Positions 32,598 to 46,650 of a stretch of DNA of 64,000 nucleotides are shown here, piece by piece. Position 1 is the first letter of the stretch. Every line of letters begins with the position of its first letter. This stretch comes from Frigoribacterium sp. CG_9.8 (GTDB lineage Bacteria > Actinomycetota > Actinomycetes > Actinomycetales > Microbacteriaceae), in assembly GCF_015751965.1 (NCBI RefSeq), contig NZ_JADOVH010000002.1:124001-188000 (forward strand). The letters are read 5' to 3'. Below the pieces are notes generated by a model. That model had not been told where the DNA came from and made no database searches. It saw only the letters and a list, made by a program, of their open reading frames with translations. A program made the position numbers and the translations under genes.

Positions 32598-34124
32598 CTA
32601 CGACAGCACGTCGCGCAGCAGCTCCTGGTTCACGGATGTGCGGGCTCGGGACACTAGGTATCCAAGACCGAGCAGCGCGAACGGAAGCAGCACCAGCACC
32701 CAACCGATGGCGCTGAGGCCCCAGGAATCGACTGTGGGATCGACGCCATCGGCCACGGTGCCGGCGAGCAGCCCGAACCTCGACATCAGCAGGTATTCAC
32801 CAAGAACAAGACCGACCGTCGCGAGGATTGGGGCGATGCTCCTCTGAAACACGTTCTCCTCGCCCCGGTTCCTGCGGAAGTACACCATGATCGCAATGCA
32901 GACGAGAATCTCGATCAGCACGATCGCCACGACCGACAGTCCGCTGAACCAGTAGAAGAGATTGAGCACGGGGTCGAGCCGGAAGACGGCGAAGGCGACG
33001 ATGATGATCCCCGTGATTACCGAGGTAACCACGGATGCCGCCGCCGGCGCCCCGCGCCCGTTGACGGTACCGAGGCGGGCGGGAAGCACTCCGCCACGAC
33101 CCATCGCGAAGAGGTAGCGGCTTGCCGCATTCTGAAACGCGAGGAGACCGGCGAACAGGCTCGAGAGCACCAGGATCGACATGACTGTCGCCATCCACGG
33201 TCCCACGTATTGGGTGGCAAGGGAGAACAACACTTCGGCGGGGGCGGCGAGTGGCACCGTGCCGATCGTCGAGAGCTCGGCCGTTCGCTCGACTACCTTC
33301 GATGCACCCATCCCGGTAACCATGGCGAATGCAGTGAGTGAGAAGAGCACGGTGATCACGATGACGGCGAGGTAGGTGGCGCGGGGTACAACTTTCTTTG
33401 GGTTGCGTGACTCTTCGCCGTAAATCGCCGTCGCCTCGAATCCGATGAACGAGGCGAACGCAAACGCGAACGCGATACCGGCGGATCCGGCGAGGCCACC
33501 GGCGACGATTGCTGCGGGGTTGAACGAGGCCCAGATATCGACGCCCTCCGGACCGCCATTGGCGAGGATGACGACGGAGGTGACCACGAGTGCAGTGAGT
33601 TCGAGGAGCATGAGAACTCCGAGCACGCGCGCGCCGATATCCACGCGCAACAGGGAGAGCACGGTCACGAGTGCCCAGGAAATGAGCGTCCAGGCCCACC
33701 ACGGGAGCACACCAACCTGGCCGGCCATCACGGCGCCGAAGAATCCGTAGACCGCGAGCTGTACCGCCACGTAGGCGAGGATCGATACGAACGCGGAGGC
33801 GATACCGGCGTGACGACCGAGTCCGCGACCGATGTAGGCGAAGAAGGCTCCGGCATTGGTGACGCGCTGGCTCATCGCTGCGTAGCCGACGCTGAACAGC
33901 AGCAGGGTGATTCCGACCGCGAGGTAGGCGCCGGGTGCTGCTGCACCGTTGCCGAGCACGATGGCTACCGGTACCGCACCGGTCATTCCGACCAGCGGCG
34001 CCGCAGCCGCGACGACGAAGAACACGATACCGATGGTGCCGAGGCGACCCTTCTGCAGAGTCGTACCGGTGTCGCCTTCGGAGGCAGGGGCGTCTGGGGC
34101 CAGGGGGTCTGGAGCAAGTGCCAT
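32598..34124 (-). CDS. APC-family amino acid/amine permease
   Basis: A 508-residue integral membrane protein with about 12-14 hydrophobic helices. The APC signature near helix 1 reads FFVVAAAAPLVGMTGAVPV, and GLAGSAGIAFAFAFASFIGF with EATAIYGEE marks the helix 6 region. It should import an amino acid or amine by H+ symport. The start is ATG 34124 with GAGGAG about seven nucleotides upstream (34132-34137); a longer ATG at 34139 is rejected. It lies at the edge of the catabolic island and shares the divergent control region with two to three copies of the TTCGGATAC motif, so it probably brings in the pathway substrate. Confidence 0.85.
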   Translation of the reverse strand: MALAPDPLAPDAPASEGDTGTTLQKGRLGTIGIVFFVVAAAAPLVGMTGAVPVAIVLGNGAAAPGAYLAVGITLLLFSVGYAAMSQRVTNAGAFFAYIGRGLGRHAGIASAFVSILAYVAVQLAVYGFFGAVMAGQVGVLPWWAWTLISWALVTVLSLLRVDIGARVLGVLMLLELTALVVTSVVILANGGPEGVDIWASFNPAAIVAGGLAGSAGIAFAFAFASFIGFEATAIYGEESRNPKKVVPRATYLAVIVITVLFSLTAFAMVTGMGASKVVERTAELSTIGTVPLAAPAEVLFSLATQYVGPWMATVMSILVLSSLFAGLLAFQNAASRYLFAMGRGGVLPARLGTVNGRGAPAAASVVTSVITGIIIVAFAVFRLDPVLNLFYWFSGLSVVAIVLIEILVCIAIMVYFRRNRGEENVFQRSIAPILATVGLVLGEYLLMSRFGLLAGTVADGVDPTVDSWGLSAIGWVLVLLPFALLGLGYLVSRARTSVNQELLRDVLS

Positions 34125-34160
34125 TTCGATACTCCTCATTGAGTTCGCTCAGCGGGGTGG

Positions 34161-34191
34161 TTCGGGTACGAGCAAGTCGTCCGTATCCGAA
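34161..34191. promoter_or_regulatory. Candidate MarR operators upstream of the permease gene
   Basis: TTCGGGTAC (34161-34169) and GTATCCGAA (34183-34191, the reverse complement of TTCGGATAC) lie head to head within 31 bp, before the permease start. The same motif recurs upstream of the decarboxylase-like gene, the P450 and the aldehyde dehydrogenase. GGGTACGAGCAAG (34164-34176) also matches GGGTACGAACAAG at 40308-40320 in 12 of 13 bases. Confidence 0.6.
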
Positions 34192-34249
34192 CGAGTTAGC
34201 TAACTGTGGCGAACCGTGCGCCTGACGTCAAGTGCAATCGACAAGTTCA

Positions 34250-34286
34250 TTCGGATACGAACAAGCGAAAAAATCTGGGCTATACT
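34250..34286 (+). promoter_or_regulatory. Operator TTCGGATAC and -10 TATACT upstream of the decarboxylase-like gene
   Basis: TTCGGATAC (34250-34258) lies within the imperfect palindrome GTTC-N10-GAAC (34245-34262), in the -35 area. TATACT (34281-34286), nearly the consensus -10, precedes the ATG by eight nucleotides, so the mRNA is likely leaderless. A repressor bound here would block the promoter. Confidence 0.6.
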
Positions 34287-34294
34287 CTGGCGCT

Positions 34295-35104
34295 ATGACT
34301 GCTCTCAACGGATTTCTCGCCCCGCTGACCCCCACCGGTGCGAGCTCGCTCGTGCCGAAGCCACCGTGGTACTACTCCGGCACACTGCTCACGGTGGAAT
34401 ACCTCACCGATCCGGCCAACGTGCGAGCTCTCCTGCCGGCGGACATCGATCTCGCACCCGACCGTCCGGGGGCCGTCGCCATCATCTGGGCAGACTGGCA
34501 GTCCTGCAGCGCGGGTGGCCTCGAACTGCTCGACCCCGTGCGCGCCCAGTACCTCGAGGCATTCGTCGTGGTGCGCTGCTCCCACCGGGGGGTCACCTAC
34601 AGCCGCTGCGTCGCAATCTGGGTCACCAAGGACTTCGCGATTGCCCGCGGATGGTTCCAGGGCTACCCCAAGAAGCTCGGCTCTGTGCACGTCACACGGC
34701 TGTTCTCGCGCGGCAAGGCGACACCACGGCTCGAAGCTGGAGCGCAGATCGGGGCCTCGCTCTCCGCCTATGACCACCGGCTGGCATCCGCCGTCGTCAC
34801 GCTGCGCGAACCCTCTGCTGACAACGGATTCGTCAACGGTCATCGGATGCTGCACAACCGCTTCATGCCCTCGATCAGCCAGGGCGAGGGTCTCTCTCTC
34901 GACCAGCTCGTGACCATGGGCGGCACCGACGCCGACCTCGGACCGGCCTGGCGCGGCGATGCGGAGCTGTCGCTCGCCGATTCGCCGTGGGACGAACTGC
35001 ATTCCATCCTCCCGGTGGCGGAGATCCTCGGCGGGTACTACCGGGAACTCGGCGTGACCTTCACCGGCGGAGACCTCGTGGAGGACCGCTCGCGCGCCGT
35101 GTGA
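34295..35104 (+). CDS. Acetoacetate decarboxylase-family enzyme
   Basis: A 269-residue protein. The motif GYPKKLGSVHVTRL contains the Lys that forms the Schiff base in acetoacetate decarboxylases, and EAFVVVRCSHRG contains the active-site Glu/Arg region. Family members decarboxylate beta-keto acids or act as aldolase-dehydratases, so the exact reaction is open; in this setting it could act on an oxo-acid produced by ring cleavage. The frame is open upstream to 34232, but ATG 34295 fits the TATACT -10. It converges on the glutamine-synthetase-like gene, with direct repeats in between. Confidence 0.8.
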   Translation: MTALNGFLAPLTPTGASSLVPKPPWYYSGTLLTVEYLTDPANVRALLPADIDLAPDRPGAVAIIWADWQSCSAGGLELLDPVRAQYLEAFVVVRCSHRGVTYSRCVAIWVTKDFAIARGWFQGYPKKLGSVHVTRLFSRGKATPRLEAGAQIGASLSAYDHRLASAVVTLREPSADNGFVNGHRMLHNRFMPSISQGEGLSLDQLVTMGGTDADLGPAWRGDAELSLADSPWDELHSILPVAEILGGYYRELGVTFTGGDLVEDRSRAV

Positions 35105-35115
35105 GCGTCGGCCCC

Positions 35116-35190
35116 GCTCCGTAGGCCACCGCTCCGTAGGCCACCGCTCAGTAGTCCATACCGCTCAGTAGTCCATACCGCTCAGTAGTC
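35116..35190. repeat. Two families of short direct repeats after the decarboxylase-like gene
   Basis: Two perfect copies of a 15-bp unit (GCTCCGTAGGCCACC, 35116-35145) are followed by two perfect copies of a 17-bp unit (GCTCAGTAGTCCATACC, 35146-35179) and a partial third. The array runs into the last codons of the convergent glutamine-synthetase-like gene. No CRISPR-like spacing is present. Confidence 0.85.
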
Positions 35191-36534
35191 TTCAAGATAT
35201 TCGTCGAGCTCCCAGCGGGTCACGTCGCGGGTGTGCGGATCCTCGACCGTCTGCTCGTAGCGGGCCACCTCATCCCGTTTCAGGATGCTGAAGACGTCCA
35301 CGAGAGGGGCACCGAGCGCGTGGCGCAGCACCAGGTCGGCATCGAGTGCGTCCAGAGCCATGGTGAGGCTCGTCGGCAACACGGCCGCCGACTCGTTCTC
35401 GTACGACCAGCCGTCCGCACTCGGGGGTATCTCGAGCTCGCGGGTGAGTCCGTCAAGGCCAGCTGCCAACACAGCAGCGACCATCAAGTAGGGGTTTGCC
35501 GCGCCGTCGCCGATGCGTACCTCCAGTCGCGTGCCCGCTCCGCGTTCCGGCGGCACCCGCACCATCGAACTGCGGTTGTCGTGGCCCCAATTGGCTCGGT
35601 AGGGCGCGAGGGTGTCCGGGCCGAGTCGTTTGTAGGCGTTGACCGTGGGGTTGGTGAAGGCGGCGAGCGCCGGAGCATGGGCCAGGATGCCGGCAATCAG
35701 ACGATTCGAGATGGTGGACAGTTGCCCATCCGGCTCACTCATCAGATTGGCGCCCGAGGAATCGATCACTGAAAAGTGCAGGTGGAATCCGCTGCCGCCC
35801 TCATCGGTCCACGGCTTGCCGAGGAAAGTCGCGAGCTTGCCGGCGCGCGCCACGATGTCCTTGATCGCCGTCTTGAACAGAAACGTGCGGTCGGCGGCAC
35901 GCAGGGCCTCGCCGTGCCAGAGGTTGATTTCGTACTGCGATGGGCTGAACTCGTGATTGCCGGCCACGACCCCGATGTCCATTCGGTCGAGCATCCGCAT
36001 CAGGTGCAGAAAGAGGCCGTCGGGGTCGACCCAGGCGCCGGTGGTGTACACGCGCCCGGTGCGGGTGAGTGCCCGCTGCCAGTCGCCGGTCGCTGAACGC
36101 TCGGCGATATAGAACTCGAGTTCCGGCCCGACAATCGGCGTGAGCCCGAGCGCGGTGTATTGCGCGATCACGTTGCGAAGCACTGACCGCGGCGCGAGGC
36201 TGCTCGCGGCACCGTTCGGCTCGAAAGCATCCGCAATGGCGAAGGCGACTCCCGGCTCCCACGGCATCAGCGTGACGGTGGACGGATCGATTCTGCTCAC
36301 GAGGTCCTGCAGCCCGTCGGACATGATGGCGTTGCCGTCGAGCACACCGCCCTGGGTGGTGGTGACCCACACACCCTGGCAGAAGGTCGGGCCACTCGGA
36401 GCCGTGCGCTCCAGTTGGCTCACAAGCAGGTCTTTGGAGCGGGTGATCCCGAGGATATCGGCGTACACCAGCCGCAGCACATCGATACCTGTGGCCTCGA
36501 GCTCTGTGCGGAGTGCGGCTGCATCGAAAGTCAT
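35182..36534 (-). CDS. Glutamine synthetase-like gamma-glutamyl-amine ligase
   Basis: A 450-residue GS-fold enzyme. Motifs: PIVGPELEFYIAER, AGNHEFSPSQYEINL, GSGFHLHFSV, YRANWGHDNRSSMVRVP and RLEVRIGDGAANPYL, giving the metal and nucleotide sites. It lacks the adenylylation Tyr region of housekeeping GlnA. Such type-III-like GS proteins (PuuA, AtdA1, IpuC, GlnA3/4) ligate glutamate to an amine using ATP. The neighbouring amidotransferase, PLP decarboxylase, P450 and ring-cleavage genes make an amine-activation role likely. It has a good ribosome-binding site GGAGG five nucleotides before ATG 36534. Which amine is used cannot be told from sequence. Confidence 0.85.
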   Translation of the reverse strand: MTFDAAALRTELEATGIDVLRLVYADILGITRSKDLLVSQLERTAPSGPTFCQGVWVTTTQGGVLDGNAIMSDGLQDLVSRIDPSTVTLMPWEPGVAFAIADAFEPNGAASSLAPRSVLRNVIAQYTALGLTPIVGPELEFYIAERSATGDWQRALTRTGRVYTTGAWVDPDGLFLHLMRMLDRMDIGVVAGNHEFSPSQYEINLWHGEALRAADRTFLFKTAIKDIVARAGKLATFLGKPWTDEGGSGFHLHFSVIDSSGANLMSEPDGQLSTISNRLIAGILAHAPALAAFTNPTVNAYKRLGPDTLAPYRANWGHDNRSSMVRVPPERGAGTRLEVRIGDGAANPYLMVAAVLAAGLDGLTRELEIPPSADGWSYENESAAVLPTSLTMALDALDADLVLRHALGAPLVDVFSILKRDEVARYEQTVEDPHTRDVTRWELDEYLEDY

Positions 36535-36566
36535 GAATCCTCCAGCCCGATAACCATGGGCACTGG

Positions 36567-36586
36567 ATCGTTCGGCCCTGAACGAT
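36567..36586. promoter_or_regulatory. Perfect inverted repeat between the GS-like and amidotransferase genes
   Basis: ATCGTTC (36567-36573) and GAACGAT (36580-36586) form a 7-bp palindrome with a 6-bp spacer. It lies 33 bp upstream of the GS-like start and 130 bp from the divergent amidotransferase, in the right place for an operator. It shares GTTCGG with the other island sites, but is not the same motif. Confidence 0.5.
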
Positions 36587-36717
36587 TAGTGCGATACTAG
36601 GGCTTAAACCGGTCAACGACGACATCCGCGATATCTGCGGCCCTTGGAATCAGTGTCAGAGTTTGGGCCCCACCCGACCGGCCTGACGGGGAAGAGCCAA
36701 CAGAATAGGCGGTGACG

Positions 36718-37440
36718 ATGACCATGCGTGCGCTGTTCATCCAGCACGACCATGTGAGCCCGACCGGCCCGGTTTCGGAGCGTTTGCGGCAACGTGGCTT
36801 CCACGTGGACGAACTGGTGATCGTCGATGAGCAGCATGTTGACACCCCCAATGTGCGCTTCGACTTTCCGGATGCATCCGACTATGACCTGCTCGTGCCG
36901 ATGGGCGCACCGTGGGGGGCCTGGGACGACGCGGGCATCGGCCGCTGGCTGGTTCCGGAGATCAGCTGGCTTCGGGACGCCGTGAAAAGAGACATCCCGG
37001 TGCTCGGTATTTGCTTCGGTGGCCAGCTGCTGTCCCGGGCTCTCGGTGGCGCGGTCGCCGCTGCCGGTCGACCAGAGATCGGCTGGACGTCGATGCACAG
37101 CGACGACGACGGGCTCGTGCCATCCGGTCCCTGGTTCGAGTTCCACTACGACCGCTGGACGGTGCCGGCCGGCGCCCGCGAGATCGCGCGCACGCCATCC
37201 GCCTCCCAGGCGTTCACTCACGGAAGGAGCCTGGCCGTGCAGTTTCATCCCGAACTCACCGCCGCGAGCCTTGAGGGCTGGTTGAACGCTGGGGGCGCCG
37301 CGAAAGTGATCGCCGACGGCCAGGATCCGGATGCCATGCTCGCCCACACCAGGGCGGAAGAGTCAGCGGCCAGAGCGCGCACCGCCATGCTCGTCGACGC
37401 CTACCTCGAGCGGGTCGCCAAGGTGCTGCCGCGCCCCTAG
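36718..37440 (+). CDS. Class I glutamine amidotransferase-like hydrolase
   Basis: A 240-residue protein of the class I GATase fold. The nucleophilic Cys is in LGICFGGQLL and the catalytic His-Glu in VQFHPEL. In the aniline and polyamine pathways a similar protein accompanies the GS-like ligase and removes the gamma-glutamyl group, which is my inference here. It is divergent from the GS-like gene. Three in-frame starts exist (GTG 36712, ATG 36718, ATG 36724); I choose 36718 because TAGGCG (36706-36711) lies six nucleotides upstream, as in several leaderless genes of this window. Confidence 0.8.
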   Translation: MTMRALFIQHDHVSPTGPVSERLRQRGFHVDELVIVDEQHVDTPNVRFDFPDASDYDLLVPMGAPWGAWDDAGIGRWLVPEISWLRDAVKRDIPVLGICFGGQLLSRALGGAVAAAGRPEIGWTSMHSDDDGLVPSGPWFEFHYDRWTVPAGAREIARTPSASQAFTHGRSLAVQFHPELTAASLEGWLNAGGAAKVIADGQDPDAMLAHTRAEESAARARTAMLVDAYLERVAKVLPRP

Positions 37441-37619
37441 CGCCACTGAGGTGTCAACTCGACAGGTTTTCATGCCGCTGAGGTGTCAACTTGACAGGTT
37501 CCCGCGCTGATTGAGCCTGCGAAGTTGACACCCGAGTGGCCGGGTGAGCGGCCGAGTGAGTGGCCGGGTGAGCGGCCGGGTGAGCGGCCGAGTGGCCGGG
37601 TGAGCGGCCGGCCGGGCCG
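37441..37619. repeat. Repeat-filled intergenic region before the PLP decarboxylase stop
   Basis: A 29-bp block containing GAGGTGTCAACT and GACAGGTT is repeated at 37441-37469 and 37473-37501. GTGTCAACTT (37483-37492) pairs with AAGTTGACAC (37522-37531), a 10-bp hairpin that could terminate both convergent genes. From 37536 to 37616 there are five or more copies of GGCCGGGTGAGC or GGCCGAGTGAG. No gene was seen. Confidence 0.8.
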
Positions 37620-39017
37620 CTAGCGCAGGGTCTCGAGGATCTCGATCACCCGCGCAGCATCCGTCTCGGGGTTCACGAACGCGAGACGCAACACCGTTTT
37701 GCCGTTGAGGGTCGTCGGCACGCAGAGCATCGTGCCCTCGACCGCGGTGGAATGCGACCAGGCCTGATAATCAGCCGTTTGCCAACCCGGACGGTCGAAC
37801 ACCACGACGGAGAGCTCCGGCTCCCGAACGAGCCGCAGGTGGTCGGATGCCCGGATGGCGCTCGCAACCGCCCGCGCGGTCTCGAGAGAGCATTCGATTG
37901 CATCCCGATACCGGTCGGTTCCGTGGGTGGCGAGACTGAACCAGAGGGGGAGCCCGCGCGCGCGCCGGCTCAGGTGCAGTGCGAGTTCGCTGGGATTCCA
38001 CGACTCGCGATCCACGTTATCGAGGTAGTTGGCCCGCTGTGAGTGGGTCGCCCGGGCGAGCGCCGGGTCGCGGTAGAGCAGCGCGCAGCAGTCGTAGGGG
38101 GCGAAGAGCCATTTGTGCGGATCCACGATGAAGCTGTCGGCCTGCTCGATGCCGTTGAAGAGCGCGCGAACGCTCGGGGCGGCGAGTCCTGCCCCACCGT
38201 AGGCACCGTCCACGTGCAGCCAGACTCCGAATTCATGGGCGACGGCTGCGACATCCGCGAGGTCGTCCACGAGCCCCTCATTGGTGGTGCCGGCTGAGGC
38301 GACGACCGCGAACACGTCGGGGGAGCGCTCAAGCACGGCCCGGAGGGCCACCCCGGTGAGGTGGCCGCGAGCATCCATCGGCACCTCGATGACGTCGACG
38401 TCGAGCGCCTTCGCTGCCGAGCGGATGGAGGAGTGGGCGTTCGCGGTGCAGGCGAGCTGCCAGCCGCCGGACGGGCGACCTCCCCGGTGGGACTTCGCCG
38501 TCTCGCGAGCGGTCATGAGTGCGGAGAGATTGCCGGAGGTGCCGCCGGAGACGAAGCATCCGCCCGCTGAATCGGGCCAGCCGAGCAGCCCGACGATCCA
38601 GGCCAGTGCCTCGTTCTCGGCGTAGATCGCTCCCGCTCCCGCCTCCCACAGCCCACCGAAGATATTCGCAGCACTGGTCACGAGGTCGAATGCGATCGCG
38701 GCCCGGGTCGGCGCGGCGGCGATATACGCGAGATTGAGTGGGTCATCCTGCGACCGGGTGGCGGGCTCGAGCACGCGGTCCCAGACGCGCAGGGCGGCCT
38801 CCGCTCCGATGCCGGATGCGGTGATGGTCGGTCCGGCATCCAGGGCGAGATCCGTCGCCGAACGCGCGGTGGAGAGCGGATCGGTGTGCCGCACCACCCG
38901 CCGCGCAGCCCAGCTGGCCGCGAGGTCCACCGTTGCCGATTCGTCCCCCCAAATCTCATGCGACCCGATCTCATGCGACCCGACCTCATGCGACCCGGTA
39001 CCCATTCGGTCGCTCAT
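37620..39017 (-). CDS. PLP-dependent group II amino acid decarboxylase (aromatic amino acid type)
   Basis: A 465-residue fold-type I PLP enzyme. The PLP Lys is in FIVDPHKWLFAPYDC, and FVSGGTSGNLSAL, VVASAGTTNEGLVDDL and WLHVDGAYGGAGL are the other cofactor-site motifs. Family members decarboxylate tyrosine, DOPA, tryptophan or diaminobutyrate. The ATG at 39017 overlaps the P450 stop codon (ATGA), so expression is coupled to the P450. Residues 7-21 hold three copies of GSHE(V/I) from a 15-bp repeat (38953-38997), which suggests a disordered N-terminus. The longer upstream frame (to 39182) lies inside the P450 gene and is rejected. Confidence 0.83.
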   Translation of the reverse strand: MSDRMGTGSHEVGSHEIGSHEIWGDESATVDLAASWAARRVVRHTDPLSTARSATDLALDAGPTITASGIGAEAALRVWDRVLEPATRSQDDPLNLAYIAAAPTRAAIAFDLVTSAANIFGGLWEAGAGAIYAENEALAWIVGLLGWPDSAGGCFVSGGTSGNLSALMTARETAKSHRGGRPSGGWQLACTANAHSSIRSAAKALDVDVIEVPMDARGHLTGVALRAVLERSPDVFAVVASAGTTNEGLVDDLADVAAVAHEFGVWLHVDGAYGGAGLAAPSVRALFNGIEQADSFIVDPHKWLFAPYDCCALLYRDPALARATHSQRANYLDNVDRESWNPSELALHLSRRARGLPLWFSLATHGTDRYRDAIECSLETARAVASAIRASDHLRLVREPELSVVVFDRPGWQTADYQAWSHSTAVEGTMLCVPTTLNGKTVLRLAFVNPETDAARVIEILETLR

Positions 39018-40273
39018 CTCGTGCTCGCCAGCTCGACCCGTACCGGGAACCGCTTGATGCCGTTGACGAAGTTGCTGCGCAGTTTCGAGACTTCGCCGAG
39101 ACGGTGCATTCCGGTGATGCGGGGAAGCAGCTCTTCGTACATCACCCGGATCTCGAGCCGCGCGAGCGCGTTGCCGAGGCACATGTGCGGACCACCACGG
39201 CCAAAGGCCATGTGCTCGTTCGGATTGCGGGTGACATCCATGCGGTAGGGGTCATCGAAGACCTGCGGATCCCGGTTGCCGGCGGCGAACCAGGGCACGA
39301 CCTTGTCGCCCTCTTTGATGGCCTGTCCGTTGATCTCCGTGTCGCGGGTGGCGGTGCGGCGAAAGTGGTAGACCGGGCTCGCCATTCGCAGAAACTCCTC
39401 GACCGCCCAGGGGATCAGCTCCGGCTTCTCCTGCAGCAGCGCGAGCTGGTCGGGGTTTTGCATGAGGTAGTCCATCGAATGGGTGATGGTGTGGCGGGTG
39501 GTCTCGTTTCCGGCGACGACGAGCAGCAGGAAGTAGCTGTTGAAGTCGCGTTCGCTCAGCGGGATGCCGTCCATCGGCGTCTGGTTGACCAGTCGGGAGA
39601 CGAGGTCGGTGCCATCGCCTCCGCGCCGCTGCCTGGCGAGCTCATTGCCGTAGTCGAAGACCTCCTGGGCGGCGGGGGAGCGAAAGGGCAGCAGCCGATA
39701 TTTCTCGCTCTCCGCAGAGTGCGCGAGCACGTCGGTGTGCTCCGGGTCGGTGTTGCCGACCATGCGATTGCCCCAGTCGATGAGGCGATAAATGTCGGTG
39801 TCGGGCACGTCGAGCATGCGGGCGAGCACGCGGATCGGAAAGTCGGCAGCCACCTCGGCGACGAAGTCGAACTCGGTCTTCGCGAAGGCGGCATCGAGCG
39901 TGGATGCCGTGAGGCCGCGCAGGAAAGTCTCGTACCCGGCCACCGCCTTCGGGGTGAACTCGCCCTGCATGAGCCGGCGAAGAGAGCGATGACGCACACC
40001 GTCAGTCTCGAGCATGGACTTGCGCGCCTCGATCTGCTCCGCATCCAGCTCCTCGAGGTTGACGGTGCCGCGCTCGCTCGAGAAGGTCTCGGTGTCGCGC
40101 AGCACGCCGACGATATCGTGGTACTTCGTCAGCGACCAGAAGCCGTGATTCGGGGCATCCTCTTCGTCCCAGTGCACGGGGGAGTTTGCACGCAGCTCGT
40201 CGAAGACCCGCCAGGGATCACCCGACTCGAAGAGATCCAAATCGGCCAAAGTGACATTCGTCGTCGAAGTCAA
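39014..40273 (-). CDS. Cytochrome P450
   Basis: A 419-residue soluble P450. The heme-thiolate motif is FGRGGPHMCLGNALAR (Cys about 354), the I-helix oxygen-binding motif is VVAGNETTRHTI and the ExxR pair is in VEEFLRMASP. It needs an electron-transfer chain; a ferredoxin (44374) and reductase (44570) are encoded in the same island. The start is TTG at 40273 with GAGGA about six to seven nucleotides upstream. The TTAGGGTAC site (40305-40313) lies just upstream, so it is probably controlled with the divergent marR gene. The substrate is unknown; hydroxylation or O-/N-dealkylation of an aromatic compound would fit the ring-cleavage genes. The family resembles CYP124/125-like actinobacterial P450s in overall layout. 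Confidence 0.93.
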   Translation of the reverse strand: MTSTTNVTLADLDLFESGDPWRVFDELRANSPVHWDEEDAPNHGFWSLTKYHDIVGVLRDTETFSSERGTVNLEELDAEQIEARKSMLETDGVRHRSLRRLMQGEFTPKAVAGYETFLRGLTASTLDAAFAKTEFDFVAEVAADFPIRVLARMLDVPDTDIYRLIDWGNRMVGNTDPEHTDVLAHSAESEKYRLLPFRSPAAQEVFDYGNELARQRRGGDGTDLVSRLVNQTPMDGIPLSERDFNSYFLLLVVAGNETTRHTITHSMDYLMQNPDQLALLQEKPELIPWAVEEFLRMASPVYHFRRTATRDTEINGQAIKEGDKVVPWFAAGNRDPQVFDDPYRMDVTRNPNEHMAFGRGGPHMCLGNALARLEIRVMYEELLPRITGMHRLGEVSKLRSNFVNGIKRFPVRVELASTR

Positions 40274-40304
40274 CTCATTCCTCGCTATCAGGTTGGGGGT
40301 GTTG

Positions 40305-40320
40305 TTAGGGTACGAACAAG
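40305..40320. promoter_or_regulatory. Candidate MarR operator upstream of P450 and marR
   Basis: TTAGGGTAC (40305-40313) differs from TTCGGATAC at two positions and continues as GAACAAG, like the site at 34250-34264. It is 32 bp upstream of the P450 TTG and 109 bp upstream of marR, in the shared divergent region. A TAGAGT hexamer (40386-40391) could be the -10 of marR. Confidence 0.5.
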
Positions 40321-40428
40321 TTATCTCCGACGATAGGGCATCCTGCCCCGGTGCGATAGCGCATCGGATCGCGTCCGGCGGTCAATTAGAGTGAGCGCAG
40401 TCTGCATCGCACGTGAGAAGGAGTCCCG

Positions 40429-40929
40429 ATGGCCGGAGCGCACACGCTCGCCGAAACCGAGCGCCAGGTCGACGCCCGACTCGGTGACCTGCGGCTCGAC
40501 TACTCCGCGATGGCGGTCGCCTCCAACCTGTTTCGGGCGGCCAATGCGGTGCGCAATCATTTTGAGCGCACGGTGCTGTCGGAAAACAACCTGTCATGGA
40601 CGGCCTTCGTCGTGCTCTGGGTCACCTGGATCTGGGAGCCGATCGAGACCCGCCAGATCGCTCTCGAGGGTGGATTCTCCAAGGCGACACTCACCGGAGT
40701 GCTCTCCACCCTCGAGGGGCGCGGATGGCTCGCTCGAGAGCGCAGCGCGAGTGACGGTCGCCTCGTGGTGGTGCGCCTCACCCCCGCCGGGCGCTCCCTG
40801 ATGAATACTCTCTTCCCGGCGTTCAACCTGCAGGAGCGTCATATCGCGAGCCCGATCGATCCTGCGCGCCGCGACGAATTCGCCGAGATGCTTCGCCTCG
40901 TGACTGCGCACGCAGAGAAGTCGGAGTAA
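40429..40929 (+). CDS. MarR-family transcriptional regulator
   Basis: A 166-residue winged-helix regulator. The recognition helix and wing are LEGGFSKATLTGVLSTLEGR, GWLARERSASDGR and LVVVRLTPAG. MarR proteins are dimeric repressors released by phenolic or other aromatic ligands. The gene has a clear ribosome-binding site AAGGAG before ATG 40429. It lies between the P450-decarboxylase and ring-cleavage operons, so it is the best candidate for binding the TTCGGATAC sites. Its ligand could be the aromatic substrate or an intermediate. Confidence 0.88.
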   Translation: MAGAHTLAETERQVDARLGDLRLDYSAMAVASNLFRAANAVRNHFERTVLSENNLSWTAFVVLWVTWIWEPIETRQIALEGGFSKATLTGVLSTLEGRGWLARERSASDGRLVVVRLTPAGRSLMNTLFPAFNLQERHIASPIDPARRDEFAEMLRLVTAHAEKSE

Positions 40930-40983
40930 CGAGCGCAGCCAGTGGTTGTAGAGCCTCCCGGGATTCGCTATGGTAATTCATTA

Positions 40984-40992
40984 GTATCCGAA
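40984..40992. promoter_or_regulatory. Candidate MarR operator upstream of the ring-cleavage operon
   Basis: GTATCCGAA (40984-40992) is the exact reverse complement of TTCGGATAC. It sits in a partial palindrome (TCATT at 40978-40982, AATGA at 40991-40995), 40 bp before the aldehyde dehydrogenase start, where a repressor would overlap the promoter. Confidence 0.6.
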
Positions 40993-41031
40993 TGACTTAA
41001 CGAGGAGTCCTTCGACCCGGGAGGCGGCGCG

Positions 41032-42519
41032 ATGACCAGCACCAGCGGCGCGGCGCTGCACCGCATCGAAGTCGCCGGCGTCGCGGTCGATACCCGTCAT
41101 TACATCGGCGGGTTGCGGGTCGCATCCGCCGAGACCTTCGCCAACACCTCGCCGATCGATGGCTCATTTCTTGGTGCGATCTCCCGTGGAACGGCTGTCG
41201 AGGTCGAATTGGCTGTCACGGCTGCCCGGGATGCCTTCCCCGGCTGGGCGGCGACACCTCCGTCCGCGCGCGCCGCGATCCTGCACCGCATCGCCGACCT
41301 CGTCGAGCAAAATCTTGATGCGCTCGCCAACATTGAGACCCTCGACAATGGGGGTTTGCTTCGCAGCAACCTGCGCGGGGTCATGCCTCGGGTGGCCCAC
41401 AACGTGCGGTTCTTCGCCGACTGGCTCGTCGAGCACCTCCACGTCGACGACTTCGAAACGCGGGGGCACAGCAACCACGTGAGCTGGGATCCGTCGGGAG
41501 TCGCCGCGATCATCACGCCGTGGAACGCCCCGCTGATGCTCGCCACCTGGCGCATCGCTCCTGCGCTCGCCGCCGGCGACACGGTCGTGCTGAAACCCGC
41601 CGAGTGGACGCCGCTCACGGCGTCCTTCTTCGCCGACCTCACCAAGCAGGCCGGCCTGCCCGACGGAGTGTTCAACGTCGTGCAGGGCTACGGGGCTGAA
41701 GCCGGCGCCGCGCTCGTCGCGCATCCCGCTCTGAGCCGAATTTCCTTCACCGGCTCGGTGCCGACGGCCAAGTCGATCGCCCGCGCGGCGGCGGAGAACC
41801 TCACCCCCTGCAGCTTCGAGCTTGGCGGCAAGAGCCCGTGCATCGTGCTCGCCGATGCCGACATCGAGCTCGCGGCATCCCTCGCGGTGGAGCAGTACGA
41901 CAATGCCGGACAGGTCTGCCTGTCGGGCACGCGGCTGCTCGTTCACGAGAGCGTCGCTGCCGAGTTCACGGCAGTTTTTATCCGCAAGGTCGAGGCGCTC
42001 GTGCAGGGTGATCCGCGGGATCCGCTCAGCGACATCGGCCCGCAGGTGCACCGCACGCACCTTGAGCGCATCACCGGTTTCGTCGACCGCGCGAGAGCGG
42101 ATGGCGCGACTATCCGTTTCGGAGGCGAACAGAATTCCCGGCTCGGCGGCCTCTACTTTCGCCCCACTCTCGTGGATGACCCGGCCCCCGGTAGTGAGAT
42201 CGTGACGCAGGAGGTCTTCGGACCGGTGCTCACAATGCAGACCTTCGCCACCGACGAAGAGGCGATCGCGCTCGCAAACGGCACCGAATTCGGCCTCGCC
42301 GCGGTGGTCGTCGCCGGCGACCGCGCCCACGCCGAGGCGATCACGACCCGGCTGGTAGCCGGCACGATCTGGGTCAACTGCTTCTTCGTGCGCGACCTCC
42401 GAGCGCCATTCGGCGGCTCGAAGAAATCCGGGGTCGGCCGCGAGGGCGGCACCTGGTCATTCGATTTCTATGCGGACGTGAAGAACACGGTCGTCGCTCC
42501 CAACGGTTGGAAGGAATAG
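41032..42519 (+). CDS. Aldehyde dehydrogenase (HpaE-like)
   Basis: A 495-residue NAD(P)-dependent aldehyde dehydrogenase. The catalytic Cys is in NAGQVCLSGTRLLV, the general-base Glu in FELGGKSPCIVLADAD, the Asn in TPWNAPLML, and FTGSVPTAKSIA is the cofactor loop. The position directly before an HpaD-type dioxygenase suggests it oxidises 5-carboxymethyl-2-hydroxymuconate semialdehyde (HpaE), though oxidation of an aryl-acetaldehyde or gamma-glutamyl aldehyde is also possible. The ribosome-binding site GGGAGG is present. It is the first gene of a five-gene operon (ALDH, dioxygenase, FAH, ferredoxin, reductase). Confidence 0.88.
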   Translation: MTSTSGAALHRIEVAGVAVDTRHYIGGLRVASAETFANTSPIDGSFLGAISRGTAVEVELAVTAARDAFPGWAATPPSARAAILHRIADLVEQNLDALANIETLDNGGLLRSNLRGVMPRVAHNVRFFADWLVEHLHVDDFETRGHSNHVSWDPSGVAAIITPWNAPLMLATWRIAPALAAGDTVVLKPAEWTPLTASFFADLTKQAGLPDGVFNVVQGYGAEAGAALVAHPALSRISFTGSVPTAKSIARAAAENLTPCSFELGGKSPCIVLADADIELAASLAVEQYDNAGQVCLSGTRLLVHESVAAEFTAVFIRKVEALVQGDPRDPLSDIGPQVHRTHLERITGFVDRARADGATIRFGGEQNSRLGGLYFRPTLVDDPAPGSEIVTQEVFGPVLTMQTFATDEEAIALANGTEFGLAAVVVAGDRAHAEAITTRLVAGTIWVNCFFVRDLRAPFGGSKKSGVGREGGTWSFDFYADVKNTVVAPNGWKE

Positions 42520-42522
42520 CTC

Positions 42523-43449
42523 ATGGGTGAAATTGTCGGTGTTGGCCTGATCGCGCACGTGCCAACCATCATGCTGTCGAAAGAGATACGCATGGAGCTG
42601 AACGAGGGGAAGGACTCGACTCTCGTCTCGGGCCTCGAGAAGCTCCGGGCGGATATCTTCGAGACTGCCGGTGAGGGGACTGAGGACTACGACACCGTCA
42701 TCGTGCTCGACAGCCACTGGGCATCCACCGTCGAGTTCATCGTCACCTCGCAGGAGCGCCGTCACGGCCTGTTCACCTCGGAGGAACTGCCGCGGGGCAT
42801 GCACGGCGTGCCATTTGACTTTCGCGGTGACCCGGAACTCGCCGAGCTTATCGCTGCGCAGGACGAGAAGAATGGCACCTGGATCACCCCGATCGACGAC
42901 CCAGACCTACCGGTGATGTACGCGACGATCAACCTCTGGAAGTACCTCGGTGAGGGCCTGCCCGATAAGAAGTGGATCAGCGTGAGCCTCTGCCAGACCG
43001 CCACCGATGAGGACTTCCTGCGAGCCGGCCGCGCGATCGGCGAGGCCGTTGCCAAGAGTGATCGACGGGTCATCCTGCTCGCCTCCGGTGCCCTGTCGCA
43101 CACTTTTTATAAGCTGCGCGAGTTGCGTAAGCATGAGATGGCGGATCCGAGTCACATCTTCTCGGAGGCGGCGCGTGTTGCCGACTACGAGCGTCTCGAC
43201 TGGTTCACGGCGGGCGACCACGCGAAGGTGCTGGAGACGATGCCGGCGTTCCACCGGGTGCGCCCGGAGGGCATGTTTGGGCATTGGCTACTCACGATCG
43301 GCGCCATCGGCGAAGAGGCCTGCACTGCTCCCGGGGTGCTCTACAGCGAATACGAGAACTCGATCGGCACCGGCCAGGTGCATGTGTGGTTCCCGCGACC
43401 CGAGGGTGGATTCCCTCCGGCGAAAGACCTGGTGCTCTCGCGTGAGTGA
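42523..43449 (+). CDS. Class III extradiol ring-cleavage dioxygenase (homoprotocatechuate 2,3-dioxygenase-like)
   Basis: A 308-residue LigB-superfamily enzyme that opens a catechol ring next to the hydroxyl groups using Fe(II) and O2. It resembles E. coli HpaD: start MGEIVGVGLIAHVPTI with the metal His, DTVIVLDSHW with the second His, GLFTSEELP, LLASGALSHTF and the terminal GTGQVHVWFP. That similarity favours 3,4-dihydroxyphenylacetate or a near analogue as substrate. It begins 3 bp after the ALDH stop with ribosome-binding site AAGGAA and overlaps the next gene. Confidence 0.87.
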   Translation: MGEIVGVGLIAHVPTIMLSKEIRMELNEGKDSTLVSGLEKLRADIFETAGEGTEDYDTVIVLDSHWASTVEFIVTSQERRHGLFTSEELPRGMHGVPFDFRGDPELAELIAAQDEKNGTWITPIDDPDLPVMYATINLWKYLGEGLPDKKWISVSLCQTATDEDFLRAGRAIGEAVAKSDRRVILLASGALSHTFYKLRELRKHEMADPSHIFSEAARVADYERLDWFTAGDHAKVLETMPAFHRVRPEGMFGHWLLTIGAIGEEACTAPGVLYSEYENSIGTGQVHVWFPRPEGGFPPAKDLVLSRE

Positions 43450-44377
43450 GCACACGCGTGAGACAGGCACAGTCGGAGCAGGCACGGTCGAGACCCGCCG
43501 CATCCTGCTCGACGGATTCGCCACCGAAGTGGTGCGACACGGTGACACCCTGGTGGCCGCCGATGGGCGTGAAGTGGGAGTGGATGAGGCGCGGCACCTG
43601 CCGCCGTCGGTTCCGTCGAAGATCATCGCGGTACACCTCAACTACGCGAGCCGCACCGACGAGTTCATGACCAAGCTTCCCGCTGCCCCCACCTACTTTC
43701 ACAAACCGGTCACCGCCCTCAACAGCCACGGCGGCTCGGTCGTTCGGCCGCTTGGCTGCAAGTGGCTCAACTTCGAGGGCGAGATCGTCATCGTGATCGG
43801 TCGCACCTGCCGCAATGTCTCGCCGGACAAGGCTAGCGACTACATCGCTGGCTACACGATCGGCAACGACTTCGGGCTGCATGACTTCCGTGACACGGAT
43901 GCCGGCTCGATGCTGCGGGTCAAGGGCAGCGACACCCTGGCCCCGGTGGGCCCCGGGCTCGTGAGTGGCTGGGACTTTCGCCACAAACAGATCCGCACCC
44001 TCGTCAACGGGGTGGTCAAGCAAGACGACAACACCGCGAATATGGAGTGGGATATGAACTACCTCGTGGCCGACATCGCGCGCACCATCACCCTGAGCCC
44101 CGGCGACCTGCTCTTCTCCGGCACGCCGGCGTTCTCCCGTCCGGTCGAGCCGGGGGATGTCGTCGAGGTTGAGGTCGAAGGCCTCGGCACCCTGTCAAAC
44201 CTGATTGTCACCGGGTTAACCGCAATCCGCACCGATGTCGGAGCCCAGCCCACCGAGAGCGAAGAGGTGGTCTCCACCGCGCTCGGGGGCGACTGGGAGT
44301 TCCGGGGCATCCGCACCCCATCTAAAGACCTCTACCCGTCGACCGTGGTTGACCCGCGCATGAAGGAGCAGCCGTGA
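43442..44377 (+). CDS. Fumarylacetoacetate hydrolase-family enzyme (HpaG-like isomerase/decarboxylase)
   Basis: A 311-residue FAH-fold enzyme. Metal and catalytic motifs: KIIAVHLNYASRTDEF, KPVTALNSHG, KWLNFEGEIVIVIG (Glu ligands), YTIGNDFGLHDFRD (Asp) and SPGDLLFSGTPA. In the homoprotocatechuate pathway HpaG decarboxylates OPET and isomerises the product. I set the start at GTG 43442, which overlaps the dioxygenase stop by 8 bp; the longer open frame from 43007 lies inside the dioxygenase gene. Its stop overlaps the ferredoxin start (GTGA). Confidence 0.86.
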   Translation: MSEHTRETGTVGAGTVETRRILLDGFATEVVRHGDTLVAADGREVGVDEARHLPPSVPSKIIAVHLNYASRTDEFMTKLPAAPTYFHKPVTALNSHGGSVVRPLGCKWLNFEGEIVIVIGRTCRNVSPDKASDYIAGYTIGNDFGLHDFRDTDAGSMLRVKGSDTLAPVGPGLVSGWDFRHKQIRTLVNGVVKQDDNTANMEWDMNYLVADIARTITLSPGDLLFSGTPAFSRPVEPGDVVEVEVEGLGTLSNLIVTGLTAIRTDVGAQPTESEEVVSTALGGDWEFRGIRTPSKDLYPSTVVDPRMKEQP

Positions 44378-44565
44378 TCAAGATCGAGGTCAACATGGAG
44401 CTCTGCCAGCACTACGGGCAGTGCGTATTCGAGGCGCCGAACCTCTTCAAGCTGGATGACGACGACAAGCTCGAATACCACGCAGAAGCGGATGACTCGG
44501 AGCGCGACAATGTCGAATCAGCCGTCGACGTCTGCCCGATGCAGGCCATTCGAATCGTCGAGTAG
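44374..44565 (+). CDS. P450-type [3Fe-4S] ferredoxin
   Basis: A 63-residue ferredoxin with only three ligand Cys: Cys11 and Cys17 in CQHYGQCVFEAP and Cys54 in VCPMQAI. The missing fourth Cys of the CxxCxxC set (Tyr14 in its place) predicts a [3Fe-4S] cluster, typical of actinobacterial P450 redox partners. It should pass electrons from the adjacent reductase to the P450 at 39014. The start GTG 44374 overlaps the FAH stop by 4 bp. Confidence 0.9.
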   Translation: MIKIEVNMELCQHYGQCVFEAPNLFKLDDDDKLEYHAEADDSERDNVESAVDVCPMQAIRIVE

Positions 44566-44569
44566 CGCC

Positions 44570-45811
44570 GTGCCGGATGCTGTGCCGGTGACCATCGCGC
44601 CGGTCATTATTGTGGGCGCGTCGCTGGGTGCGCTTCGCACCGCTGAGGCTCTGCGCCGGGCCGGTTACGCGGGCCCGCTGACCGTGATCGGTGAAGAGCC
44701 GCACGCTCCCTATAACCGTCCGCCGCTCTCAAAAGAGGTGCTCTCTACCGGGGTATCGCACAGTGCAGTCGCCTTCCCGGCCCGGGCGGCCACGGCAGAC
44801 GTGGAGTGGATGCTCAGCGCTCGCGTCGTCTCCGCCGATCTCGAGGCTCGCACCGTGACGGCTGACGATGGTCGAAAACATCCGTGGCGCGCCCTGGTGA
44901 TCGCCACCGGACTTCGCTCACGGCGGCTGGATCTCCCGCTCATCGCCGGGCGGCACACCGTGCGCACCCTCGACGATGCGATGGCCCTGCGCGACGAACT
45001 CGTGCCCGGCGCGAGCGTCGTGATGGTAGGAGCCGGCTTCATTGGTTGCGAGGTGGCGGCAACGGCACGCAAGCTCGGCTGCGAGGTCACGATCGTGGCA
45101 CCCGGGGCCGAGCCGCTCATCCGGCCGCTCGGGGCGTTGGTGGGCGCGGAGCTCCGGCGTCGTCACGAACAGCACGGGGTGTCATTCGCACTCGGCCGCA
45201 CGGTCGCCGCCATTCTTGGCGAGGTCGCATTCGAGGGTCTGCAACTTGACACTGGCGAGGTCATTGCCGGGGACGTGCTGGTTGAGGCAATCGGCTCCGT
45301 GTGCAACACCGACTGGCTCGATGGCACCTCTCTCGACCTCACCGATGGTGTGCTCGCGGATTCCGCGCTCCGGGCGGTATCGACCGACGGCACCGCGCAT
45401 GACGACATCTACGTGGTCGGCGACATCGCGCGCTTCCCCAACCGCATGTTCGATGACGTTGCACGCCGGATCGAGCACTGGAACATCCCGACCGACACGG
45501 GAAAACGTGTGGGTGCGGTACTCGGAGCTTGGCTTGCCGACGATGGGTCGTTTGCCGAGCTGGTGACGCGAGAGTTCACGCCGATGCCAGCGTTCTGGTC
45601 GAACCAGTTCGAGGTGGGTGTGCAGGCCTATGGGCTGCCAGCGCTGACCGATGGCGACATCCGCATCCTTCAGGGTGAACTGTCCGGTGCGGTCGCCGTC
45701 GGGTATTACCGGGCGGATCGCCTGGTCGGGGTCGTCGGGCTCGGTCTCAAGGCAGAGCTTCTGCCCTATCGGCAGCAGATCACCGCGCTAGCGTCAGGCA
45801 AGTTGACCTAG
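44570..45811 (+). CDS. FAD-dependent ferredoxin reductase
   Basis: A 413-residue NAD(P)H-dependent flavoprotein of the putidaredoxin/rubredoxin reductase family. FAD-binding: IIVGASLGALRTAEAL; NAD-binding: VVMVGAGFIGCEVAATARK; the second FAD segment is DDIYVVGDIARFPN. It reduces the ferredoxin and so feeds the P450. The start is GTG 44570, 5 bp after the ferredoxin stop; an upstream extension to 44456 runs within the ferredoxin gene and is rejected. It ends the operon, 17 bp before the next gene. Confidence 0.9.
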   Translation: MPDAVPVTIAPVIIVGASLGALRTAEALRRAGYAGPLTVIGEEPHAPYNRPPLSKEVLSTGVSHSAVAFPARAATADVEWMLSARVVSADLEARTVTADDGRKHPWRALVIATGLRSRRLDLPLIAGRHTVRTLDDAMALRDELVPGASVVMVGAGFIGCEVAATARKLGCEVTIVAPGAEPLIRPLGALVGAELRRRHEQHGVSFALGRTVAAILGEVAFEGLQLDTGEVIAGDVLVEAIGSVCNTDWLDGTSLDLTDGVLADSALRAVSTDGTAHDDIYVVGDIARFPNRMFDDVARRIEHWNIPTDTGKRVGAVLGAWLADDGSFAELVTREFTPMPAFWSNQFEVGVQAYGLPALTDGDIRILQGELSGAVAVGYYRADRLVGVVGLGLKAELLPYRQQITALASGKLT

Positions 45812-45828
45812 GCGAATAGGCTGGCCGC

Positions 45829-46650
45829 ATGAGCGACAGAGTTGAACCCCTAGCCATCGCTGTCGCGCAAATTGCTCCCGGCGAAGACACCGCGGCCAAT
45901 CTCGAGCAGCTGCGCGATCTCGCCACGACCGCGGCATCCCGCGGCGCGAAGCTAGTAGTTTTTCCGGAATACTCTTCCTACTTTTCACCGGCGCTCGGCT
46001 CGAACTCTGTTGCAGCCGCCGAGGCTCTCGACGGCCCGTTCGTGGCCGGGCTCGAGGCGATTGCGAAGGTGCTGGATATCCACATCGTGGCCGGGATGCT
46101 CGAGCGTTCTGACGACGACTCCCGGTTCTTCAACACGCTGGTGGCGCTCGACCCCCACGGCACGCTGGTGGCGAAGTGCCGCAAACTGCACCTGTATGAC
46201 GCGTTCGGTCAGCGGGAGAGCGACTGGGTCATGCCCGGTCCGATCGAAGAGCCGCGGCTCTTCGCTCTCGGTGATCTGACCGTGGGAATGCAGACCTGCT
46301 ACGACATCCGCTTTCCCGAGGTAAGCCGGCGAATCGTCGACGCGGGAGCGGATGTCATTGTGCTGCCAAGCGAGTGGGTGCGGGGCCCGCTCAAGGAGCA
46401 GCACTGGCGCACTCTGGTCACGGCGCGCGCTATCGAGAACACCGTGTATTTCGCTGCTGCCGATCACGGTCCGCCGGTCGGGGCCGGTAACAGCATGATC
46501 GTAGATCCGATGGGTGTCGAGCTCGCGACTATCGGCGATGAAACGGGAGTGGCGATCGCCTGGGTGTCAGTGGCACGGATCGCTGCAGTGCGCGCGGTGA
46601 ACCCGGCGCTCGCGCTGCGCCGCTTCGGTGTGCACGCTCTGCCGCACTAG
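45829..46650 (+). CDS. Nitrilase-superfamily carbon-nitrogen hydrolase
   Basis: A 273-residue amidase with the Glu-Lys-Cys triad: Glu in VVFPEYSSYF, Lys in AKCRKLHLYDAFG and Cys in GMQTCYDIRFPE. Layout and length resemble omega-amidase or deaminated-glutathione amidase. It has its own -10-like TAGGCT (45817-45822), six nucleotides before the ATG, so a separate leaderless transcript is possible despite the 17-bp gap to the reductase. The next, convergent gene encodes an aminotransferase, and a glutamine transaminase/omega-amidase pairing is possible. A role in hydrolysing an amide made by the GS-like ligase is speculative. Confidence 0.82.
   Translation: MSDRVEPLAIAVAQIAPGEDTAANLEQLRDLATTAASRGAKLVVFPEYSSYFSPALGSNSVAAAEALDGPFVAGLEAIAKVLDIHIVAGMLERSDDDSRFFNTLVALDPHGTLVAKCRKLHLYDAFGQRESDWVMPGPIEEPRLFALGDLTVGMQTCYDIRFPEVSRRIVDAGADVIVLPSEWVRGPLKEQHWRTLVTARAIENTVYFAAADHGPPVGAGNSMIVDPMGVELATIGDETGVAIAWVSVARIAAVRAVNPALALRRFGVHALPH

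Follow-up and report, generated by a model that had tools for sequence, protein, structure and literature searches.

A cluster of thirteen genes in Frigoribacterium sp. CG_9.8, contained within 14 kb (32.6-46.65 kb) of the 64-kb stretch of DNA analysed here (the window), may encode a pathway that degrades an aryl-ethylamine, tyramine and/or dopamine being the likeliest, with a glutamyl tag carried through ring cleavage; the chances of this reading are put at even. The route that it implies, held with marginally less confidence, would be new: a gamma-glutamyl tag kept through cytochrome P450 oxidation and extradiol cleavage, the ring giving pyruvate and gamma-glutamyl-aminobutyraldehyde, the latter going on to gamma-aminobutyric acid (GABA), and an acetoacetate decarboxylase-like (ADC-like) enzyme acting as hydratase and aldolase. 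The firmer part of this scheme is that the ADC-like gene stands in for HpaH and HpaI, whatever the P450 does, which gene content and profile searches make likely. Both halves of the cluster are recognisable; the combination and its end product are not. If true, two textbook pathways, homoprotocatechuate ring cleavage and gamma-glutamylation of the Puu type, are joined into one, and GABA arises from an aromatic ring, an unexpected end product that is open to mass spectrometry. No description of this gene set was found among the titles listed from the open PMC subset, subscription papers lying outside its coverage.

The genes were identified by Pfam and NCBIfam scans, which recovered every gene listed in an earlier reading of the letters alone (the sequence-only reading) and added one that it had overlooked, the ADC-like gene. 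Scores of the form "x of y bits" are set against the family cut-off.

32598..34139, minus strand: APC-family permease, amine or amino-acid uptake (PF00324, 8e-26; PF13520)
34295..35104, plus strand: ADC-like enzyme, between the permease and GS-like genes (PF06314, 5e-58; open reading frame from 34232, ATG at 34295)
35182..36534, minus strand: predicted gamma-glutamyl-amine ligase resembling glutamine synthetase (GS-like; PF00120, 3e-91; Gln-synt_C)
36712..37440, plus strand: class I glutamine amidotransferase-like protein (GATase), proposed gamma-glutamyl amide hydrolase (PF00117, 2e-12)
37620..39017, minus strand: group II pyridoxal phosphate-dependent amino-acid decarboxylase (PF00282, 2e-56)
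39014..40273, minus strand: cytochrome P450, class I (PF00067, 1e-23)
40429..40929, plus strand: MarR-family regulator, divergent from the P450 gene (PF01047; HpaR 45 of 121 bits)
41032..42519, plus strand: HpaE-like aldehyde dehydrogenase (ALDH), for the ring-cleavage semialdehyde (HpaE 494 of 638 bits)
42523..43449, plus strand: LigB-type extradiol dioxygenase, HpaD-like (PF02900; HpaD_Fe 124 of 316 bits)
43487..44377, plus strand: FAA-hydrolase family protein, HpaG-like isomerase/decarboxylase (PF01557, 3e-52)
44374..44565, plus strand: small single-cluster Fe-S ferredoxin, presumably serving the P450 (PF13459, PF13370)
44570 (or 44588)..45811, plus strand: ferredoxin reductase (PF07992, 8e-52; PF14759)
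45829..46650, plus strand: nitrilase-type amidase, accessory (PF00795; deaminated-glutathione amidase 225 of 355 bits)

The plus-strand operon runs in the order ALDH, LigB, FAA, ferredoxin, reductase, nitrilase, and the GATase gene, also on the plus strand, is divergent from the GS-like gene. The stop codon of the P450 gene overlaps the ATG of the decarboxylase gene, so that both are probably carried on one transcript.

Conservation and promoters of the gene set

The gene set is a real unit. Among 199 genomes of the family, 23 encode the LigB enzyme (called at E 1e-40), this genome included. Twenty of the 22 other loci were fetched, and in all 20 the genes for P450, MarR, ALDH, LigB, FAA, ferredoxin and reductase are co-ordered, the P450 of one (L039) being truncated by the end of the contig. 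A wider set consists of the best 80 of 146 relatives, drawn partly from the same genomes and with one metagenome-assembled genome giving two loci; per-gene counts refer to those of the 80 loci with enough flank. The GS-like ligase is present in 58/58 such loci (at 28% identity in one, Nocardioides), the P450 in 61/62, the GATase in 57/60, the ADC-like gene in 53/57 and the permease in 47/55, with similar figures for MarR (65/70), ALDH (72/74), FAA (74/76), ferredoxin (70/72) and reductase (62/64). The sequence-only reading had treated the genes as one linked pathway and had proposed a search for the same set in family relatives. That search bears it out: the homologues are not scattered, the block from P450 to reductase being syntenic in most of the 80 loci as well, and a gene order that recurs in this way makes the linkage more than chance.

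Three further genes are accessory, namely a C26 hydrolase (40/73 loci, within 12 kb), the decarboxylase (20/61) and the nitrilase (12/54); the last two counts rule out the decarboxylase and the nitrilase as core parts. Largely the same set is found again in Streptomyces canus, Embleya, Kineosporia and the alphaproteobacterium Novosphingobium sp. EMRT-2, the last without an actinobacterial-type ferredoxin; loci of S. lunaelactis and Nocardioides carry it without the P450 system. On the Kineosporia contig the ALDH, FAA, ADC-like and MarR genes lie 11-20 kb from LigB. A second Kineosporia-type locus (L118) was covered over its original stretch, and its genome gave no match to the ADC-like protein. 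Salinibacterium amurskyense DSM 16400 and Alpinimonas psychrophila DSM 23737 are among the cluster-bearing strains. If the pathway is as proposed, it suggests the use of tyramine or dopamine by small-genome freshwater actinobacteria (Aurantimicrobium, Rhodoluna), Salinibacterium, Microcella and others.

Several promoters of the cluster share an operator-like palindrome, TTCGGRTACGAA, which was derived by eye from the intergenic DNA of the window, so that counting it there is in part circular. When one mismatch is allowed, it occurs five times in the 64 kb, against 0.29 expected, and none of 100 shuffles reaches five. All five sites fall within three cluster promoters:

34161..34261 (34161, 34180, 34250), strand not assigned: three operator-like sites between the permease and ADC-like genes, 0-1 mismatch
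40305..40316, plus strand: operator-like site in the divergent P450/MarR promoter, 1 mismatch
40981..40992, minus strand: operator-like site upstream of the ALDH-LigB-FAA-ferredoxin-reductase genes, 1 mismatch

The relatives offer a fairer test: at up to two mismatches, a site is present in 33/45 permease/ADC, 52/63 P450/MarR and 52/63 ALDH regions. The density in these three regions is 2.94 per kb versus 0.125 per kb elsewhere in the loci, which are related to one another and not independent. No site was found at one mismatch in the loci of Streptomycetaceae. The common palindrome suggests that these promoters form one MarR regulon.

Ring-cleavage enzymes and the ADC-like gene

The ring-cleavage enzymes resemble those of the homoprotocatechuate (Hpa) pathway, and the order ALDH-LigB-FAA is that of hpaE-hpaD-FAA in Ruegeria pomeroyi. 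HpaE is the best of 40 families for the ALDH. The closest PDB (8iq8) and NCBIfam relatives of the LigB enzyme are 3,4-dihydroxyphenylacetate dioxygenases, followed in the PDB by 2-aminophenol 1,6-dioxygenase subunits, and the FAA enzyme comes close to HpaG (HpaG-C-term 188 of 276 bits; PRK12764 218 of 444). Since all three score under the NCBIfam equivalog cut-offs, they are Hpa-like and not canonical. The cluster also differs from the Hpa pathway in adding the ADC-like enzyme and the gamma-glutamyl genes, and in what the genome does not match: profiles for HpaH (TIGR02312) and HpaI (TIGR02311) at E 1e-3, the flavin hydroxylase HpaB (PF03241) and copper amine oxidase all gave no match in it. 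The sequence-only reading had noted the lack of these enzymes in the cluster, and to this extent it is upheld genome-wide. Its suggestion that the P450 replaces one of the missing Hpa steps fares less well, the gap left by HpaH and HpaI being most likely filled by the ADC-like gene.

Among 25 genomes, HpaI exceeds its cut-off in none, HpaH in one (G146, where its neighbour on the same contig is an HpaI-like match, at 322 of 369 bits) and HpaB is present in two (G083, G146); below cut-off, weaker HpaI and HpaH profile matches occur in eight and four. Candidates elsewhere in this genome were considered and rejected: its PF03328 members are nearest to RipC/CitE and pyruvate kinase, its two other PF01557 (FAA) proteins are rhamnonate hydrolase-like and HpaG-like, and a canonical 4-hydroxy-2-oxovalerate aldolase exceeds its cut-off in 4/25 genomes (G022, G146, Kineosporia, Nocardioides), this one not among them.

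By contrast, ADC-like orthologues (at least 423 bits) accompany LigB in 21 of the 23 LigB-positive family genomes. The two without one, G038 and G112, are draft assemblies in which the contig bearing LigB breaks off within the cluster. The 176 LigB-negative genomes gave only two weak matches (32-33% identity). The gene need not be adjacent: it lies 59 kb from LigB in G181 and on another contig in G131, G169 and G189. In G059, G181 and G184 one stop codon falls within the matched stretch; as the query starts 21 residues before the likely ATG, this codon is taken to lie upstream of the gene. The association extends to plasmids, where the five records with LigB at 55% identity or more are the same five with an ADC-like protein at 52% or more, in two phyla; among the matches listed (15 of the 46 for LigB, all 15 for ADC), the next after these five stand at 36% for LigB and 39% or less for ADC. 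Two related LigB clusters opened that are without an ADC-like gene carry classical enzymes, annotated HpcG and HpcH in Sphingobium and HpaH in Ruegeria pomeroyi.

In profile comparison the ADC-like protein is closest to PDB entries 6eej/4zbo and to MppR (4jm3), at 190-193 bits, with 5upb at 108 and the true ADC 3bgt at 28; against the NCBIfam MppR family it reaches 178 of 380 bits. We take 6eej/4zbo to be Sbi00515 of S. bingchenggensis and 5upb to be Swit_4259. Sbi00515 and MppR are Schiff-base enzymes with pyruvate aldol and dehydration chemistry. The Lys147-Lys148 motif, presumably that of the Schiff-base lysine, is found in 70/70 aligned proteins, from collections whose loci overlap, and the arginine of 3bgt, which we assume to be the decarboxylase arginine, aligns with an invariant Gly50. 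A plain acetoacetate decarboxylase was rejected for the PF06314 gene, as true ADCs match it far more weakly than the MppR group does. The cluster's protein thus shares with that group the Lys-Lys motif and the replaced arginine, and differs from it in its catabolic gene context and in the proposed cleaving direction. MppR is described as an aldolase that joins pyruvate to an aldehyde, and the retro-direction in a meta-cleavage pathway is proposed for Sso1221/Sso1222 of S. solfataricus (PMC7820114), so that the idea of a retro-aldol role is by itself not new. A general assignment of ADC-like proteins to meta-cleavage is not supported by distant plasmid homologues: the 4 of 10 that were opened (36-39%) lie beside malonate decarboxylase, fatty-acid/CoA, cytochrome oxidase and other genes. 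If true, the scheme gives a catabolic role to a little-studied family of ADC-like aldolase-dehydratases.

Amine handling and the proposed route

In the route proposed, clusters with the decarboxylase would obtain the amine from tyrosine or DOPA, and the GS-like ligase would couple it to glutamate. Ring hydroxylation, from gamma-glutamyl-tyramine to gamma-glutamyl-dopamine, would fall to the P450, served by the ferredoxin and reductase, and the LigB enzyme would open the catechol. The HpaE-like dehydrogenase and the HpaG-like FAA enzyme would then oxidise, decarboxylate and isomerise the ring-cleavage product, and the ADC-like enzyme would hydrate the product of the FAA enzyme and split off pyruvate, which is the work of HpaH and HpaI and probably the last two steps. 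When the steps of the homoprotocatechuate pathway are followed on paper with a CH2CH2NH-glutamyl side chain in place of CH2COOH, retro-aldol cleavage gives pyruvate and 4-(gamma-glutamylamino)butanal. The latter, which follows as second product if the tag is retained, is an intermediate of the Puu pathway and the substrate of PuuC. A PuuC-like dehydrogenase together with a PuuD-like (C26), GATase or nitrilase-type hydrolase would finally convert it into GABA and glutamate. The tag would also prevent the free amine from cyclising.

The GS-like ligase stays under the cut-off of all four named equivalogs, and the flap glutamate of true glutamine synthetases is replaced throughout the GS-like proteins (Leu in 80, Phe in 4 and Thr in 1 of 85 aligned, never Glu; Leu309 here), a loss that makes a gamma-glutamyl adduct plausible. 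This part of the sequence-only reading, an aryl-ethylamine carried as a gamma-glutamyl adduct, therefore stands as plausible; the tag would, on the route preferred here, probably be kept through cleavage to GABA and not removed earlier. Cys101 and His179-Pro-Glu181 of the GATase are kept in 77/77 aligned sequences, and the haem Cys365 of the P450 in 91/91. With its haem cysteine, the ferredoxin and a reductase binding FAD, the bacterial class I P450 system is complete. The lysine of the DPHKW motif is kept in 31/31 aligned decarboxylases. The amino-acid decarboxylation of the earlier reading is retained in part: decarboxylase homologues of different subfamilies lie within 10 kb of the cluster in 22/80 loci, 13 at the position seen in the window (72-89%), 3 directly behind the reductase (30-34%) and 6 elsewhere downstream (29-52%), and the gene is accessory, as its count above indicates.

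Partners of the Puu type occur in part of the relatives. A PuuC-like ALDH (E 1e-170) is found in 8/199 family genomes, all eight LigB-positive (8/23), and adjoins the permease in 7/8, the eighth being cut by the contig end; the query for this search (P0012) is itself N-terminally cut by a locus edge, and at most 8 ALDH candidates were scored per genome. In G059, G083, G146 and G184 the permease has PuuC, a GATase-like gene and a second GS as neighbours, joined in three of the four genomes by an SSADH-like gene (for succinic semialdehyde dehydrogenase); two genomes of Salinibacterium type (G082, G145) have a GS-C26-ALDH triplet (28-44% identity) 4-6 kb from the permease. Where the full region upstream of a PuuC-like gene is available, TTCGGRTACGAA occurs with one mismatch in 2/7 (L146, L147). 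The PuuC-like ALDH and C26 are adjacent in S. canus, S. lunaelactis and Embleya. Against the PuuD equivalog, C26 reaches 57 of 266 bits, under the cut-off. Compared with the Puu putrescine pathway, the cluster shares the GS-like ligase, the APC permease and, in these relatives, the PuuC-like ALDH and C26; it differs in its proposed aromatic substrate, in having a P450 and ring cleavage instead of the PuuB oxidase, and, in the window, in lacking PuuC and C26. The nitrilase occupies the place of C26 there. Where both flanks are available (52 loci), the nitrilase occurs alone in 11 and C26 alone in 24, while 17 have neither and none has both, although both are present in L031 (G139); as the nitrilase is limited to one lineage, this alternation is not strong evidence of replacement.

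Plasmid pSLUN1 of S. lunaelactis carries decarboxylase, permease, GS, LigB, ALDH, FAA, ADC, PuuC-like and C26 genes within 28.9 kb, the best families for its decarboxylase being tyrosine decarboxylases. No P450 was found on it by tblastn, nor any amine oxidase among the annotated genes of the 28.9 kb, a PLSDB gene table that can be incomplete. Judged by these annotations, each enzyme would have one place in the scheme, which would be complete from DOPA or dopamine. Near the Nocardioides locus, likewise without a P450, lie genes for a GABA transaminase, scoring over cut-off, and for an SSADH-like protein (537 of 646 bits); HpaB was not found in that genome.

Other explanations and neighbouring features

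Several observations weigh against the carriage of the tag through ring cleavage. This genome has no PuuC-like orthologue at the strict threshold among the up to 8 ALDH candidates scored, and its cluster has no C26; its own GS-C26-ALDH triplet sits on another contig and is less similar (30, 37 and 41%). Partners are missing elsewhere as well: the Kineosporia contig has C26 and no PuuC-like gene, at the Nocardioides locus the identity of the GS drops to 28% and the second ALDH is not of PuuC type (320 of 850 bits), and the Novosphingobium EMRT-2 cluster is without C26 and GATase, its second ALDH again not being PuuC-like (298 of 850 bits). Phenylacetaldehyde dehydrogenase families also match the PuuC-like ALDHs well. 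That ADC-like enzymes carry out retro-aldol cleavage in catabolism is as yet a proposal only (PMC7820114). Lastly, genes for P450, GS and amidotransferase adjoin paaABCD in Ruegeria TM1040 (L135, 11151-14677) and in Tritonibacter, one lineage, and the P450 of the LigB-bearing Novosphingobium EMRT-2 is, with full support, sister to theirs. This neighbourhood and kinship fit a P450 that makes an arylacetaldehyde by C-N cleavage.

On that alternative, the P450 would act on a gamma-glutamyl aryl-ethylamine such as gamma-glutamyl-dopamine, hydroxylating the carbon adjacent to its amide nitrogen, and the carbinolamide would fall apart into glutamine and an arylacetaldehyde. The aldehyde would be oxidised to homoprotocatechuate, and this in turn converted by the Hpa-like enzymes and the ADC-like aldolase into pyruvate and succinic semialdehyde. 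Besides the paa-linked genes, the aldehyde dehydrogenase scores and the partners missing from Novosphingobium, it is favoured by HpaD and HpaE being the nearest families of the LigB enzyme and the ALDH, and by the failure to match copper amine oxidase in this genome, in which flavin amine oxidases were not searched for. Related modules of P450, GS-like and amidotransferase or C26 genes also lie near other, unrelated lower pathways in Sagittula (L137, 9929-13236) and Mesorhizobium (L138, 11971-19373); their occurrence beside paa, aromatic acyl-CoA and other pathways suggests a portable amine-handling module. Two points tell against such N-dealkylation. The P450-less clusters of S. lunaelactis and Nocardioides retain the GS-like ligase, C26 and a second ALDH, and tyramine would still require a ring hydroxylase, HpaB being unmatched in this genome. 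The missing partners, the paa-linked trio, the Novosphingobium P450 and the phenylacetaldehyde dehydrogenase scores hold carriage of the tag at an even chance and leave N-dealkylation a serious though rather unlikely competitor.

P450s with GS-like genes are also known from cyclic-amine degraders. The PipA/MorA degraders of piperidine and morpholine resemble the cluster in having a P450 with ferredoxin and reductase and a glutamine synthetase gene under a neighbouring locus tag in Gulosibacter, and differ in that the parts of PMC9477822 describing them mention no ring-cleavage dioxygenase; the likeness is one of gene content, the P450 sequences not having been compared.

A substrate of another kind, an aromatic amine of the aminophenol or aniline type, is improbable. 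The pathway would then be AtdA-like, with the GS-like ligase, the P450 in place of a Rieske dioxygenase, and LigB cleaving a catechol or aminophenol. In the aniline system a GS-like ligase (AtdA1) is presumably paired with a class I amidotransferase-like protein (AtdA2), as here, and the 2-aminophenol dioxygenase subunits are the next PDB relatives of LigB. We take the AtdA system to have a Rieske dioxygenase where this cluster has a P450, and neither an ADC-like nor a decarboxylase gene. Against it stand the closer kinship of LigB to 3,4-dihydroxyphenylacetate dioxygenase, the decarboxylases of different subfamilies near several clusters, and the linkage of PuuC and C26 in part of the relatives.

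Two separate neighbouring pathways sharing a locus, amine utilisation (GS/GATase/permease) and homoprotocatechuate degradation, are very improbable: gene order does differ between taxa and the operator-like site is rare at GS/GATase (8/57), which also counts against the joint pathway, but GS (58/58) and P450 (61/62) are near-constant, both recur with LigB in S. canus, Embleya, Novosphingobium and Kineosporia, and the permease/ADC, P450/MarR and ALDH promoters have one site in common.

Some minor features were noted in and around the loci. A second amidotransferase gene, 28-29% identical to the first in its product, adjoins the P450 gene on the opposite strand in L044 (14663-15391), L045, L074 and L077. 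A zinc alcohol/aldehyde dehydrogenase gene lies behind the reductase in L041 (10796-11854; nearest Ahr, 306 of 470 bits for this locus) and downstream of it in L071, L074, L077 and L104, all of one sub-lineage. Just 3' of the cluster in L030 (13386-14468; G076), a 360-residue protein combines a response-regulator receiver domain with a PIG-L (GlcNAc-PI de-N-acetylase) domain. In the window, a 15-17 nt unit, ACCGCTCAGTAGTCCAT, occurs in five tandem copies at 35113-35193, between the convergent GS-like and ADC-like genes, the array reaching into the 3' end of the former. The gap between the convergent GATase and decarboxylase genes (37442-37625) is filled by two direct repeats of 27 nt, GAGGTGTCAACT.GACAGGTT, together with an array whose 12-nt units are of the GAGCGGCCGGGT type.

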